64,000 nt of DNA. It comes from Alphaproteobacteria bacterium. Its GTDB lineage: Bacteria; Pseudomonadota; Alphaproteobacteria; Acetobacterales; Acetobacteraceae. Of this stretch, positions 33,269 to 41,244 are shown piece by piece (position 1 is the stretch's first letter; every line of letters begins with the position of its first letter). The position numbers and the translations under genes were made by a program. The notes beneath the pieces were generated by a model. That model made no database searches. It saw only the letters and a program-made list of their open reading frames with translations, and was not told where the DNA came from. Location of the stretch: assembly GCA_020850755.1 (NCBI GenBank), contig JADZEB010000018.1, forward strand, positions 186,001-250,000, given 5' to 3'.

Positions 33269-34788
33269 TGCAGGCCCTGCTCGCAGCCCCGCTGCTCGTG
33301 CCGCTGGCCACGGCCTGCCTCGCGGCGCTGTTCTGGGGCCGGGCGGCCGCCCAGCGGGCGATCGGCATGGCCGGGTCGCTGGTGTTGCTGGCGGTGGCGG
33401 CACTGCTGCTGCGCGAGGTGGCGGCGGGCGGGCGCATCGTCGGGCAGATGGGCGGCTGGCCCGCGCCCTTCGGCATCACCCTGGTGGTGGATGCCTTCGC
33501 CGCGATCATGCTGCTCATCACCGGCGTGATGGCGGTTTCGGTGTCGCTCTATGCCATGGCCTCGGGCGCGCGCGAGCGCGACCGCGCCGGCTTCCAGCCG
33601 CTGCTGCACAGCCTGCTGCTCGGCGTGTGCGGGGCCTTTGTCACCGGCGACCTGTTCAACCTCTATGTCTGGTTCGAGGTGATGCTGATCGCCTCCTTCG
33701 GGCTGCTGGTGCTGGAGCGCACGCCGGCGCAGATCGATGGCGGGCTGCGCTACGTGATGCTGAACCTGGTCGGCACCACCTTTTTCCTGATGGCGGTGGG
33801 GCTGATCTACGGCCTTGCCGGGACGCTCAATCTCGCCGATCTCGCGCGGCTGGCGCCGGGCATCGCCAACCAGGGCGCGCTGGCCGCGGCGGGCATGCTG
33901 CTGCTGGTGGCGTTCGGCGCCAAGGCAGCGGTGTTCCCGCTGTTCAACTGGCTGCCGGCCGCCTACCACACCGCCTCGGTGCCGGTGGCGGCGATCTTCG
34001 CCGCGCTTCTGACCAAGGTCGGCGTCTATGCGATCATCCGCGTCTGGACGCTGCTGTTCGCCCATGACGTGGCCTTCTTCGGCCCCGTGCTGGGTGCGGT
34101 CGCGGTGGCGACGATGGTCGTGGGCGTGCTCGGCGCGGCGGCGCATCACGACGTGATGCGCATCCTCTCGTTCCACATCATCAGCCAGATCGGCTACATG
34201 CTGGTGGGCGTGGCGCTGATGACGCCGCTCGCCATCGCCGGCAGCGTCTTCTACATCCTGCACCACATCATCGTGAAGGCGAACCTGTTCCTGCTCGCCG
34301 GCGCGATCCGCCGCGAGGGCGGCAGCTTCGCCCTGGCGCGGCTTGGCGGCCTGTGGGTGGGCGCGCCGCTGCTTGGCCTGCTGTTCCTCGTTCCGGCGCT
34401 GTCGCTGGCGGGCCTGCCGCCGCTTTCGGGCTTCTGGGCGAAGCTGATGGTGATCCGCGGCAGCATCGAGGCGGGTGCCAATCTGGTCGCGGCGGCGGCG
34501 CTTCTGGTCGGGCTGCTGACGCTCTACTCGATGGTGAAGATCTGGAACGAGGCGTTCTGGAAGCCCGCGCCGGAGGGGGCCGCGCTCCCCGCCCCCGCCA
34601 TGGGCGAGCGCGCGGCCAGCTATGCGCCGATCGTGGCCCTGGCGGGGATCACGCTTGCGATCGGCCTCTGGACCGAGCCGTTCGCGCGGCTGTCGCTGGT
34701 GGTGGCCGGCGGCCTGCTCGACCGCGAGGGCTACATCGCCGCGGTGCTGGCGCCCGGTGCCACCCACCTCGCAGGAGTGGTGCCATGA
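33268..34788 (+). CDS. mrpD: Mrp antiporter subunit D (NuoN/NuoM-like)
   Basis: The 506-residue polytopic subunit has fourteen expected helices. Features are LYVWFEVMLIASFGLLVLE with the conserved helix-5 glutamate, AAVFPLFNWLPAAYHTASVPV, HDVMRILSFHIISQIGYM and SLAGLPPLSGFWAKL. The ATG at 33268 is chosen over an adjacent GTG at 33265 because a GGAGG site (33256-33260) is then 7 bp away. The start overlaps the stop of mrpC (TGATG). Together with MrpA it forms the antiporter-like proton/cation channels. Confidence 0.94.
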   Translation: MQALLAAPLLVPLATACLAALFWGRAAAQRAIGMAGSLVLLAVAALLLREVAAGGRIVGQMGGWPAPFGITLVVDAFAAIMLLITGVMAVSVSLYAMASGARERDRAGFQPLLHSLLLGVCGAFVTGDLFNLYVWFEVMLIASFGLLVLERTPAQIDGGLRYVMLNLVGTTFFLMAVGLIYGLAGTLNLADLARLAPGIANQGALAAAGMLLLVAFGAKAAVFPLFNWLPAAYHTASVPVAAIFAALLTKVGVYAIIRVWTLLFAHDVAFFGPVLGAVAVATMVVGVLGAAAHHDVMRILSFHIISQIGYMLVGVALMTPLAIAGSVFYILHHIIVKANLFLLAGAIRREGGSFALARLGGLWVGAPLLGLLFLVPALSLAGLPPLSGFWAKLMVIRGSIEAGANLVAAAALLVGLLTLYSMVKIWNEAFWKPAPEGAALPAPAMGERAASYAPIVALAGITLAIGLWTEPFARLSLVVAGGLLDREGYIAAVLAPGATHLAGVVP

Positions 34789-35132
34789 AGCCGTTCGCCC
34801 TGCTGGCAGGCTGGAGTGGCGTCGCGGCGGGTTTCGCCGTCGAGCTTGCCAAGGCGACGCTTGCCACCATCCGCGCCGTGCTCGGCGCCACGCTGGGCGG
34901 CAATGGCGCGCTGCGCCCGGCGATCCTGGCCGTGCCCCTCGATCTTCGCTCGCCCGCCGGCATCGCCCTGTTCGCCGACATGGTGACGCTGACGCCGGGC
35001 ACCACCAGCCTCGATGTGTCGGAGGATCGAAGCGTGCTCTATGTCCATGTGCTGGACGCGCCCGACCATGCCGCGGCGGTGGCCGAGATGAAGGCGGCGC
35101 TGGAGGCGCGCGTGCGCCGGGTGCTGCCATGA
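34785..35132 (+). CDS. mrpE: Mrp antiporter subunit E, N-terminally short
   Basis: At 115 residues this is clearly shorter than the usual 155-165 for MrpE. The conserved soluble part is complete: ITLTPGT-type MVTLTPGTTSLDVSED and the LYVHVLDAP strand. At the N-terminus only one short hydrophobic stretch is visible (PFALLAGWSGVAAGFAVELA), so the first membrane helices seem to be lost. The ATG overlaps the mrpD stop (ATGA) and no earlier start in frame fits. MrpE is needed for stability of the complex in other bacteria. A shortened form is possible, as known for some alphaproteobacterial sets, but I cannot confirm how common it is. Confidence 0.88.
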   Translation: MKPFALLAGWSGVAAGFAVELAKATLATIRAVLGATLGGNGALRPAILAVPLDLRSPAGIALFADMVTLTPGTTSLDVSEDRSVLYVHVLDAPDHAAAVAEMKAALEARVRRVLP

Positions 35133-35452
35133 GCGCGGTGCTCGCCGCCACCGCTTTCACCGCCATCGTCGCCGGCGTGGCGATCCTCGCCGTTGCGGCG
35201 CGCCTGCTGCGCGGCCCTTCCAGCGCGGATCGTGCCATCGCCATCGACATGCTCGGGCTGCTGGCGATCGTGGTGGCGACGCTGGTGGCGGTGATCGCCG
35301 GGCAGCAGGGCTTCCTCGATGTCGCCTTCGGCATCGCGCTGGTGGCCTTCCTGGGCGCGGTCGCCTTCGCCGGGCTGCTCGAGCGCCTCGGCGCCGCCGT
35401 GTCCGACGCAGCGCCGCCGGCGCCGGCCGCCGCGCGCGAGGACACGCCATGA
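35129..35452 (+). CDS. mrpF: Mrp antiporter subunit F
   Basis: The 107-residue protein has three helices and the MrpF signature RLLRGPSSADRAIAIDMLG near residues 25-43, in which the DR pair is characteristic. GFLDVAFGIALVAFLGAVAFA follows in the third helix. A Pro-Ala tail of about 20 residues extends beyond the family core. It is coupled to mrpE (ATGA) and to mrpG (ATGA). It resembles bile-acid exporter-like small subunits of the complex. Confidence 0.93.
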   Translation: MSAVLAATAFTAIVAGVAILAVAARLLRGPSSADRAIAIDMLGLLAIVVATLVAVIAGQQGFLDVAFGIALVAFLGAVAFAGLLERLGAAVSDAAPPAPAAAREDTP

Positions 35453-36738
35453 GCGCGGCAGGGGAGATCCTGGCCGCGCTCCTGATCCTGTCCGGGGGCG
35501 TGGTGATCGGCTTCGCCGCACTTGGCGTGCTGCGCCTGCCGGACCCGTTCATGCGCATGCATGCCGCGACCAAGGCGGGGGTGGTGGGCGCGGGATTCGT
35601 GCTGCTCGGGGGGGGACTTTCCTTCGGCACGCTGTCGGGCGCGCTCACCGGACTTGCCGGCTTCCTGTTCCTGCTGGTGACCGCGCCGCTTGCCTCGCAC
35701 GCGCTCGGCCGCGCCGCCTATGTCGCCGGCGCACCGCTGAGCGGCACCACCACCCACGACGCGCTGGCGGGCGTGCTGCCGCGCAACGTCGTCGATATCG
35801 CGGCGGCGCGTGCGCGCTGGTCGCGCGAGGTTACCGAGATCCCTGTCGAGGAGGGCGCCATGACTGCCATTCCCTACCGGAGTTCGCCCGCATCGGCCGA
35901 GGCGACCGACCTTCTGGCCGTGCGTCGGGTCACCACCTGGCTGATCGGCGGGCCGTCGCAGCCCGAAGCCTCGCAGCTCGCCTTCGATCTCGCCCGCCTG
36001 TCGGGCGCGGAGATCACCGGGCTGACGGCGCTCGATCCCGCGGCGGTGGAGTATCGCGAGCCGCTTTCGATCGGCGGCGGCTACTGGATGCGCTGGATGG
36101 CGGATCGGCGGCGGGTGGCCATGCGCCAGGCCGCGTCGCAGGCGCTGGCCGAGTTCGAGCGGCTGGCGGCGAGCGTGCGCCGGCCCGCCACCACCCGCCA
36201 CGAGGAGGGCGATTTCGCCGCGCTGGCGCCGGTGCTGGCCGGATCCGACCTGCTCGTGCTGCCGGCCGGTGTCGATCGCACGGGGCGGCAATGCGACCAT
36301 GCCGAGGAGGCGTCGAGCATGGTGGCGCGGGCGCGGCTTGCCCCGGTGCTGCGCGTGCTGCGCCGTCCGCCCGCGGTGCGCCGCGTGCTGCTGCTGGTCG
36401 GCACCACGCCGGCCTGCCCGCGGCTGGCGCAGGGGCTGATCCGCGCCGGCCTGTGGCCCGATGCGCGCATCACCGTGGCGCCCGCCAGCGCCGCCGACCC
36501 GGCACAGGCGCGCATCGTCGCCGCTCAGGTCGAGCTGCTGCAGGCGCATGGCCGCGACGCGCAGGCCGGCCAGCCGCTGGATGCCGATGGCGGCCGCGCC
36601 GCCATGCTTGCGCGCATCCGCGCCTACGATGCCGCCGTGATGGGCGCCTTGTCGAACCGCGCCGGCTGGCTCGGCGCGCTCGGCGCCGATCTGCACGAGA
36701 CGGTTGCCGACACCGCGCCCCTGATCCTCTTGCCCTAG
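35449..36738 (+). CDS. mrpG: Mrp antiporter subunit G with a C-terminal universal-stress-like extension
   Basis: The 429-residue protein is three to four times the usual length. Residues 1-115 are a complete MrpG with three helices and the signature LGVLRLPDPFMRMHAATKAG. From about residue 160 onward there are two soluble alpha/beta units: residues 160-300 with VRRVTTWLIGGPSQPEASQL and SDLLVLPAG, and 305-429 with VRRVLLLVGTTPAC and AAVMGALSNRAG. Their strand-loop-helix order resembles tandem UspA domains. The frame is uninterrupted. An internal ATG at 35860 (codon 138) has a strong GAGGAGG site and could produce the soluble part alone. The fusion could couple antiporter state to nucleotide or stress sensing, which is inference. 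Confidence 0.85.
   Translation: MSAAGEILAALLILSGGVVIGFAALGVLRLPDPFMRMHAATKAGVVGAGFVLLGGGLSFGTLSGALTGLAGFLFLLVTAPLASHALGRAAYVAGAPLSGTTTHDALAGVLPRNVVDIAAARARWSREVTEIPVEEGAMTAIPYRSSPASAEATDLLAVRRVTTWLIGGPSQPEASQLAFDLARLSGAEITGLTALDPAAVEYREPLSIGGGYWMRWMADRRRVAMRQAASQALAEFERLAASVRRPATTRHEEGDFAALAPVLAGSDLLVLPAGVDRTGRQCDHAEEASSMVARARLAPVLRVLRRPPAVRRVLLLVGTTPACPRLAQGLIRAGLWPDARITVAPASAADPAQARIVAAQVELLQAHGRDAQAGQPLDADGGRAAMLARIRAYDAAVMGALSNRAGWLGALGADLHETVADTAPLILLP
35848..35862 (+). promoter_or_regulatory. Internal ribosome site and start codon within mrpG
   Basis: GAGGAGG (35848-35854) followed after 5 bp by ATG (35860-35862), in frame with mrpG. It lies exactly at the linker between the membrane part and the universal-stress-like part. 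It is stronger than most start sites of the operon and would give a separate protein of 292 residues. Confidence 0.5.
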
Positions 36739-36778
36739 GCGGCGCGCGGCCCCATCTGCCGGGGATGCGAGACGTGCT

Positions 36779-36796
36779 CGCGAGCGGCGGCTCGCG
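36779..36796 (+). terminator. Hairpin between mrpG and the histidine kinase gene
   Basis: The 7-bp perfect arms CGCGAGC and GCTCGCG have a four-base loop within the 81-bp gap. There is no T-run. It may attenuate transcription from the mrp genes into the two-component genes or stabilise the upstream mRNA. Confidence 0.3.
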
Positions 36797-36819
36797 TCGG
36801 CCAATGATGCGTTCGGGTG

Positions 36820-38201
36820 ATGCTGTCCTGGATTCCACCAACCTTGCGCCTGCCGCTTGCCGCCGGCCTGATCATCTTCGTGGTGGCGGTCGGCACGACG
36901 CAGGTGGCGCTTCGCTTCGAGGCGCGCGAGGCCGAATCCCAGGTCCGCCGCGTCGGGCAGGTCTATCTCGACGGGCTGGTGACCGCGGCCCGCCCGGCGC
37001 TGGAAGCGGGCGATCTCGCCGAGTTGTCGCGGCTGTTCGCGCTCGCCTTCGCCGAGCAGCGCGGCATCTCCGAGCGCGCGCTGTTCGCCTTCGATCCCGA
37101 GGGCGGGCTGCTGGCCCGGGTCGGCGATCCGGCACTGCGCCACGATCCCGCGCCCGGTCCCCTGCGCGAGGCTTTTCGCATCGATGCGCAAGCGGGCGTG
37201 GCCTGGGTGTCGCGCCGCGTCGAGCCGGGGCCCGGCTTCGTGCTGCTGGCCGCGCTCGATTTCCGCGACGTGCTCGATGCGCGCCGGCGCCTTGTCATTG
37301 CCGTCGTGCTGGTCGATCTGGTGATCGCCGCGGCCTGCGCGCTGCTGGCCTACGGGCTGTTGAACCGGCTGAACCGCCCGGTCGTGACGATGGTGCGCGA
37401 GCTGGAGGCGGCATCCGCGGGCGTGCCCGCGCCGCTGCCCGAGGCGACCATCGCGGCGGCGGATGCGCGCATCCGCCCGATCTATGGCGCCTTCAACCGC
37501 ATGGTCGGGGCGATGCGCGAGCGCGAGCAGCTCGCCGCCGAGCTTGCCGAGAAGGAGCAGGCGGCCGCGCTCGGCCGCCTTGCCGCCACCATCGCCCACG
37601 AGGTGCGCAACCCGCTCGGCGGGCTTGCCACGGCGGTATCCACCATCAGGCGCTTCGGTGCCGATGCCGAGGTTCGCACCGAATCGCTCGGCCTGCTTGA
37701 ACGCGGGATCGAGACGCTGGACCGGCTGGTGACCTCGACGCTCAACCTCTACCGCCCCGAGCAGGAGCGGCGCCTGACCCGCACCGACTTCGAGGATCTG
37801 GAGCGTCTGGTCCGCCCTGCTGCCGAGAAGCATGGCGTCGCGCTGGAGTGGGACATTGCCGTGCCGGCATCGCTTGCCCTTGGCGCGGTCGGGGTGCGGC
37901 AGGTGCTGCTCAACCTGCTGCTCAATGCCTGCGCCGCCTCGCCTGCCGGGGGGCGGGTCGGGCTCGCGGCCAGGGTCGAGGACGGGGCGCTGGTCTGCAT
38001 CGTCACCGACCAGGGCGGCGGCATGGATCCGCGCAATGCCGAGTGGCTGGAGGCGGGGCGCATGCCCGCGTCCGGCTCGCGGCGCCTCGGCATGGACGTG
38101 GTGGTGAGCATGCTCGGCAGCCTGGCCGGGCGCGCCTCGGTCGCGAGCGACCCCGCGCATGGCACCACCATCCGCGTCGCGATCCCGCTGGAGGCGGGGG
38201 C

Positions 38202-38205
<4 letters not shown>
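36820..38205 (+). CDS. Sensor histidine kinase
   Basis: The 461-residue membrane kinase has a helix at about 5-27, a periplasmic domain of about 125 residues, a second helix near 155-180, then a HAMP-like linker (LLNRLNRPVVTMVREL). The dimerisation box AHEVRNPLGGLATAV has the phospho-acceptor at His260. N-box LLNLLLNACAAS and G-box VTDQGGGMD complete the ATPase. The late box with RRLGMDVVVSML fits kinases that pair with NtrC-type regulators. A GTG directly precedes the ATG chosen. It overlaps the regulator gene by ATGA and follows mrpG by 81 bp, so it may sense ion or pH stress. The signal is unknown. Confidence 0.92.
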
Positions 38206-39536
<1,331 letters not shown>

Positions 39537-39561: not shown

Positions 39562-39592
39562 TTGACCTTCCCCCTGGGGGAAGGCGTTCACT
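39562..39592 (+). promoter_or_regulatory. CueR-type (MerR family) copper-responsive promoter
   Basis: TTGACC (39562-39567) overlaps a perfect 9-bp inverted repeat, CCTTCCCCC-T-GGGGGAAGG (39566-39584), and is followed after exactly 19 bp by TTCACT (39587-39592). The long 19-bp spacer with a dyad between -35 and -10 is the mark of MerR-family promoters. The ACCTTCC-N-GGAAGG sequence is that of CueR sites such as at E. coli copA and cueO. It lies 93 bp ahead of the multicopper oxidase gene. No cueR gene is in the window. Confidence 0.85.
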
Positions 39593-39684
39593 CCGTCCTT
39601 GCGGATGCGGCTGTCCCGGCCCTTGCGGGGGCTGGCCGCGCGGGGCCGCGCATCGACCAACGCCTGATCGAAGGGATCCGCGCC

Positions 39685-41244
39685 ATGCCTGTTTCGCGCC
39701 GCCTGCTGCTCGGCAGTTCTGCCGCCGCGGCTTCATCCTTCCTGCTGCCATCCGCCTCCGCCCGCGCCCAGGACGCCGCTCCCGCCGGGGCGCGCAGCCT
39801 GAGCGTCGGCACGCGCATGCTGGAGGTCAAGGGCCGCGCCGCGCGCGTCTTCTCCATCACCGATGGCGCCGGCAGGCCGGGCCTCGTGCTCGATCCGGGC
39901 GAGCGCTTCCGCGTCGCGCTCGCCAACCGCACCGAGGAGCCGACCACCCTCCACTGGCATGGCCAGACCCCGCCGGTGGCGCAGGACGGCATGCCCGACA
40001 TCTCGCACCCGCCGCTGCCGCCGGGCGGGGCGCATGCCTATGATTTCGCGGCCCGCGCCGGCACGCACTGGATGCACAGCCACCACGCCTTGCAGGAAAT
40101 GAACCTGATGGCTGCGCCCTTGATCGTGCACGGCGCGGCCGACCGGCGCACCGATCGCCAGGAGGTGGTGGTGCTCCTGCACGATTTCAGCTTCACCCCG
40201 CCCGAGCAGGTGCTGGCGGCGCTGCGCGCGGGCGCCCATGCCGGCCACGGAGCCCAGGCCACGGCGAGCCCCGCGCCGCAGGCCGGGGCCGAGCCGCGTG
40301 CCGCCGAGCCGCGCGCCGCCGATCCGCATGCCGGGCACCGCATGGGCGGGGGCGGCATGGCGGGCATGATGGGCGGTATGATGGGCGGTATGATGGGCGG
40401 CGGCATGCCCGGCATGATGATGGGGGGCACGGACCTCAACGACCATGATTTCGACGCCTATCTCGCCAACGACCGCACGCTCGACGATCCGGAAGTCGTG
40501 CGCGTCGAGCCGGGCGGGCGGGTGCTGTTGCGCCTGATCAATGGCGCGGCCGCGACCGTGTTCTGGATCGATCTCGGCGCGCTCGAAGGCCGGCTCGTCG
40601 CGGTTGATGGCAATGCGGTGCAGCCGATCGCCGGGCGGCGCTTCCCCTTCGCCATGGGCCAGCGGCTGGACATCGCGCTCGAGCTGCCGCGCGCGGGCGG
40701 AACCTTCCCGATCCTCGCCCAGCGCGAGGGCGACCGGGTGCGCACCGGCATCATCCTTGCTGCGCGCGGTGCGCCGGTGCGGCGCGTGGCCGAGCAGGCC
40801 GGCCAAGCGGCAGGCGCGATGACGCTGGAGCTCGAATCGCGCCTGCGCGCCGCATCCGGCGCCGGGCTGGCGCCGCGCGAGCCCGACCGGCGGCTTCGCG
40901 CCATGCTCACCGGCAATATGAGCCCCTATGAGTGGGGCATCGATGGCCGGGCCTGGGGCGCGCATCGCCCGCTTGCCGTGCGTGCGGGCGAGCGGGTGGA
41001 ACTCACGCTCGAGAACCACAGCATGATGGCGCACCCGATGCACCTGCACGGCCACCACTTCCAGGTGGTGGCGATCGGCGGGCGGCGCATGGCCGGTGCG
41101 ATGCGCGACACGGTGCAGATCCCGCCGATGGGCGCGGCGACCCTCGCCTTCACTGCCGACAATCCCGGCCGCTGGTTCCTGCACTGCCACAACCTCCTGC
41201 ACATGGCCACCGGCATGATGACCGAGATCGCCTATGCGGCCTGA
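39685..41244 (+). CDS. Met-rich multicopper oxidase (copper resistance, CueO/CopA type)
   Basis: The 519-residue periplasmic oxidase has a Tat leader (SRRLLLG, residues 4-10, cleavage near ARAQD). All four copper-ligand clusters are present: LHWHG (about 89-93), HSHH (about 132-135), HPMHLHGHHF (about 450-459) and HCHNLLHMATGM (about 500-511), the last with the axial methionine of the T1 copper. Residues about 217-250 form a His/Met-rich insert with repeated MMGG, the mark of cuprous oxidases that take Cu(I) and make Cu(II). The CueR-type promoter upstream confirms a copper role. The ATG follows a GAAGGGATC site. Substrate other than copper is not excluded. Confidence 0.93.
   Translation: MPVSRRLLLGSSAAAASSFLLPSASARAQDAAPAGARSLSVGTRMLEVKGRAARVFSITDGAGRPGLVLDPGERFRVALANRTEEPTTLHWHGQTPPVAQDGMPDISHPPLPPGGAHAYDFAARAGTHWMHSHHALQEMNLMAAPLIVHGAADRRTDRQEVVVLLHDFSFTPPEQVLAALRAGAHAGHGAQATASPAPQAGAEPRAAEPRAADPHAGHRMGGGGMAGMMGGMMGGMMGGGMPGMMMGGTDLNDHDFDAYLANDRTLDDPEVVRVEPGGRVLLRLINGAAATVFWIDLGALEGRLVAVDGNAVQPIAGRRFPFAMGQRLDIALELPRAGGTFPILAQREGDRVRTGIILAARGAPVRRVAEQAGQAAGAMTLELESRLRAASGAGLAPREPDRRLRAMLTGNMSPYEWGIDGRAWGAHRPLAVRAGERVELTLENHSMMAHPMHLHGHHFQVVAIGGRRMAGAMRDTVQIPPMGAATLAFTADNPGRWFLHCHNLLHMATGMMTEIAYAA

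Follow-up and report, generated by a model that had tools for sequence, protein, structure and literature searches.

A predicted CueR/HmrR-type copper promoter ahead of a CutO-like multicopper oxidase gene in an alphaproteobacterial genome

What controls the multicopper oxidase gene at 39685-41244 (+ strand) of the 64-kb stretch of DNA analysed here (the window), and is the inverted repeat that lies ahead of it the operator of a copper sensor? The first-pass annotation had described a perfect 9-bp dyad set in an exact 19-bp spacing between TTGACC and TTCACT, and direct reading of the sequence at 39562-39592, GCGC and then TTGACC-TTCCCCCTGGGGGAAGGCG-TTCACT, bears out each of these elements. The -35 hexamer TTGACC (39562-39567, + strand) is separated by a 19-bp spacer (39568-39586, + strand) from the -10 hexamer TTCACT (39587-39592, + strand), which matches TATAAT at three of six positions and is the weakest element of the promoter. 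A -35/-10 spacing of 19 bp rather than 17 bp is the mark of MerR-family promoters, and CueR sites typically overlap the end of the -35. The dyad, CCTTCCCCC-T-GGGGGAAGG (39566-39584), has a 9-1-9 layout, with perfect 9-bp arms at 39566-39574 and 39576-39584 flanking a single central T. It takes in the final two bases of the -35 hexamer, so while the 19-bp spacing stands, the dyad does not lie strictly inside the spacer as first annotated.

The published CueR/HmrR signal consists of ACCTTCCC-(5)-TGGAAGGT plus a 19-bp spacer, and the regulon that it defines includes cueO (PMC1526738). The predicted CueR operator fits this consensus in the form ACCTTCCC-(5)-(T)GGAAGG(T): ACCTTCC-N7-GGAAGG is positioned over the -35, with C instead of T as the final base. 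The same dyad and 19-bp spacer are found in known CueR/HmrR regulons, such as the E. coli copA and cueO promoters and HmrR-actP of Rhizobiales, from which the present site differs in having a fully symmetric 9-1-9 dyad. Further downstream, direct reading places a Shine-Dalgarno-like GAAGGGA at 39670-39676 (+ strand).

The element was said to be the only one of its kind in the window, and scans for the exact motif and for TTGACC with a dyad agree: ACCTTCCN7GGAAGG has a single match without mismatches, its sole one-mismatch match is its own reverse strand, and TTGACC with a centred dyad of at least 7/9 occurs once. At a GC content of 72%, perfect 9-bp dyads are nothing unusual: 63 inverted repeats of 9 nt or more were counted in 20 kb, and the dyad alone would therefore not convince. 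As a control, TTGACC with a centred 9/9 dyad was absent from 18 Mb of first-order Markov sequence; with the dyad relaxed to at least 7/9, such sequence gives about 3.5 cases per genome-equivalent. Across the whole genome ACCTTCCN7GGAAGG occurs exactly in two places only. The second, at C18:27508-27527 (minus strand; L043), lies between open reading frames and has CTGACC in place of TTGACC. We set it aside as a copper promoter, as it is without a TTGACC -35 and no copper gene was recognised alongside it.

The genome has comparable sites at further copper genes. The pattern TTGACCTT-N11-AA has four matches in 4.5 Mb, compared with none for the reversed control pattern, and changing the gap from 11 to 12 returned two unrelated sites only. 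Palindromic symmetry is seen in three of these matches, each of which is directly upstream of a copper gene: the oxidase site (dyad score 9/9); C32:15922 (7/9), 66 bp before a copZ-like gene whose 66-aa product has an HMA domain and the motif MTCGGC; and C35:58205 (7/9), 68 bp ahead of the gene for a CopA-type Cu(I)-ATPase containing GMSCASC. All three have an identical TTGACC. Further copies of the architecture before copA and copZ were what the first-pass annotation had expected. Given how often dyads of at least 7/9 arise by chance, the copA and copZ sites rest on their position and on the fuller consensus. The promoter element before the oxidase lies 123 bp ahead of the ATG, and this longer box-to-ATG distance (66-68 bp at copZ and copA), like the weak -10, counts against the reading as a CueR-type promoter. 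The fourth match, C35:1983 on the minus strand, lacks palindromic symmetry and was left aside. Behind the copZ-like gene, in the region C32:15922-21729 (L191), come an OmpR-type response regulator, a probable sensor kinase frame and the gene of a second Cu-type P-type ATPase (match C32:19969-21729).

The genome encodes four MerR-domain proteins, one of which (C45:75101) scores 163.7 bits against the NCBIfam CueR model TIGR02044 (cut-off 147.4) and is the sole protein of the genome above that cut-off. Its best PDB match is E. coli CueR, and alignment with that protein shows that Ser77 and the C-X7-C Cu(I) site are kept, as in the sensors of known CueR/HmrR regulons. The original reading, which depended on a CueR homologue being encoded somewhere in the genome and held that the regulator was not near the oxidase, is thus borne out by a cueR gene far off on contig C45. 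The gene is unlinked to its predicted targets, unlike in the CueR/HmrR regulons compared. Its immediate neighbours include no recognisable copper genes, and no box with up to four mismatches was found in the 19 kb around it; unlinked cueR genes that lack a site of their own are known (PMC1526738). A dispersed element with CCACCAGATCGGAC and AGCCGAACGGAA occurs, for example, just after cueR; it is found on C45, C22, C35, C32 and C1 (L039, L056, L061, L191, L002, L011), is absent from the window and looks like an interspersed repeat.

With both a CueR homologue and sister sites at copA and copZ in its favour, we are confident that the element is a CueR/HmrR-type promoter-operator of the oxidase gene, for which binding by CueR and a response to Cu(I) are predicted. 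What the sequence itself shows is the promoter architecture, a CueR homologue and the sites at copA and copZ; that CueR binds and distorts the DNA, that Cu(I) is required and what the enzyme does are transferred from the known family. CueR is known to bend and under-twist an over-long spacer, upon which sigma-70 engages both hexamers (PMC8113463). By analogy, a dimer of CueR, whose gene is on another contig, would sit on the dyad between the over-spaced -35 and -10, and on binding Cu(I), or Ag(I) or Au(I), at its two-cysteine site would under-twist and bend the 19-bp spacer, making the promoter usable by sigma-70 RNA polymerase. The Tat-exported oxidase would then oxidise periplasmic Cu(I), and the co-regulated CopA and CopZ would deal with cytosolic Cu(I). 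The predicted targets, copA, a copper chaperone and a multicopper oxidase, are also those of known CueR/HmrR regulons, and the switch is very probably an ordinary instance of this well-known type, leaving the textbook picture unchanged. What changes is the footing of the oxidase's copper label, which moves from homology to a predicted regulon of one CueR and three targets (the oxidase, copZ and copA).

We considered whether the oxidase might instead be controlled by the genes that precede it. Immediately upstream and in the same direction is an NtrC-type sigma-54 response regulator (38205-39536) with its own kinase ahead of it, and this pair could govern the oxidase, the dyad being incidental or a site of that regulator. 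A -24/-12-like sigma-54 site, TGTCCCGGCCCTTGC, with two mismatches, can indeed be drawn near 39612. However, it is without the -24 GG, and a single strand of the 64-kb window has 16 sites of that standard, which is chance quality, whereas the dyad matches the copper sites that the genome has before copA and copZ. Sigma-54 control is therefore very unlikely. Further upstream, 34353-38205 holds open reading frames resembling the E, F and G subunits of an Mrp/Mnh cation/proton antiporter, a reading made from translations only, and then the sensor kinase; the oxidase is followed by genes for a TetR regulator and an acyl-CoA ligase.

The oxidase itself has 519 aa, a twin-arginine signal peptide (RRLLLGSS) and, by Pfam, three Cu-oxidase domains. 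Its best homologues (51-57% identity) are nearly all alphaproteobacterial and include one from Rhodobacter capsulatus (L163). It falls well short of the NCBIfam CueO equivalog model NF008205 (60.5 bits; cut-off 525), in which it differs from the oxidases of known CueR regulons, and of the CopA copper-resistance oxidase model TIGR01480 (242.8 bits; cut-off 478.95). From the translation and the Pfam domain limits, a Met-rich segment, HRMGGGGMAGMMGGMM... (40337-40431, + strand), lies between domains 1 and 2, and the Met-rich sequence of R. capsulatus CutO is placed likewise (PMC8456105). In this insert the protein resembles Rhodobacter CutO more than CueO. The earlier description of a Met-rich, cuprous-type oxidase thus holds as regards the Met-rich sequence and is refined as regards type: the curated models give neither CueO nor CopA, and the layout is CutO-like.

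This likeness raises the question of whether the gene is mainly under translational control, through a CutF-like leader and stem-loop as for R. capsulatus CutO, with a constitutive promoter. The two oxidases are homologous and share the Tat signal as well as the Met-rich sequence separating domain 1 from domain 2, but the cutFOG arrangement, in which CutO is under the translational control of CutF, differs from the present one: no cutF was found directly upstream of the oxidase, where the preceding gene encodes the sigma-54 response regulator, and a CueR-type box stands directly before the gene instead. The predicted leader also folds worse than its shuffles (z +1.63), and we regard translational control as highly improbable. 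The apparent placing of a CutO-like oxidase without cutF directly under CueR is the one mildly interesting aspect of the locus; it adds to the comparison of copper-oxidase control in Alphaproteobacteria a CutO-type gene that has a CueR-type promoter to itself and no cutF. Tentatively, a CutO-type oxidase may in this lineage have given up translational control by CutF in favour of direct transcriptional control through CueR, its level then following copper in the cytosol rather than in the periplasm, though we do not favour this suggestion.

The dyad lies 29 bp past the stop codon of the response-regulator gene and would fold as RNA upon read-through, but that it is a terminator hairpin or RNA stem-loop is scarcely credible, as the region has no T-run, terminator prediction or Rfam match, and such a reading leaves TTGACC, the exact spacing and the pattern shared with copA and copZ unexplained. 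A second metal-type MerR regulator, CadR/ZntR-like, is encoded at C11:51041-51415 (L001, L040). Its gene is divergent from that of a P-type ATPase which has a His-rich stretch as well as GMDCASC, and the two probably form a zinc/cadmium efflux pair. Use of the site by this regulator, which is related in sequence, is barely plausible: the protein carries the additional Cys that marks sensors of divalent metals, reaches none of the curated cut-offs and is encoded divergently from its own ATPase, whereas the dyad has the copper-type ACCTTCC half-site.

How widely is the predicted CueR control of this oxidase shared? When TTGACCTT-N11-AA sites were collected from the genome and its relatives, a CopA, CopZ or oxidase homologue came next at 10 of the 12 with a dyad of at least 7/9, three of which are those of the genome itself, and at 12 of the 39 with a weaker dyad. 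A dyad-aware scan found a coding-strand box in the 1 kb upstream of 10 out of 76 close oxidase homologues, a modest enrichment over the controls (one on the opposite strand, two in the downstream 1 kb). The remaining 66 were without a box within that distance, which counts against the main reading, and by mismatch count alone the 350 bp upstream of 80 homologues showed no enrichment over control windows. Since most homologues are box-free and the nearest 350 bp are not enriched, predicted direct control by CueR is patchy among relatives. An oxidase orthologue from the same family (L086) has TTGACCTTCCCATGCGGCAACC immediately before its ATG. Azospirillum cutO-type loci (L124, L143, L160, L165) likewise have an exact CueR-type box upstream of the homologous oxidase; unlike at the present locus, it is about 560-580 bp ahead of the gene, from which it is separated by another small open reading frame.
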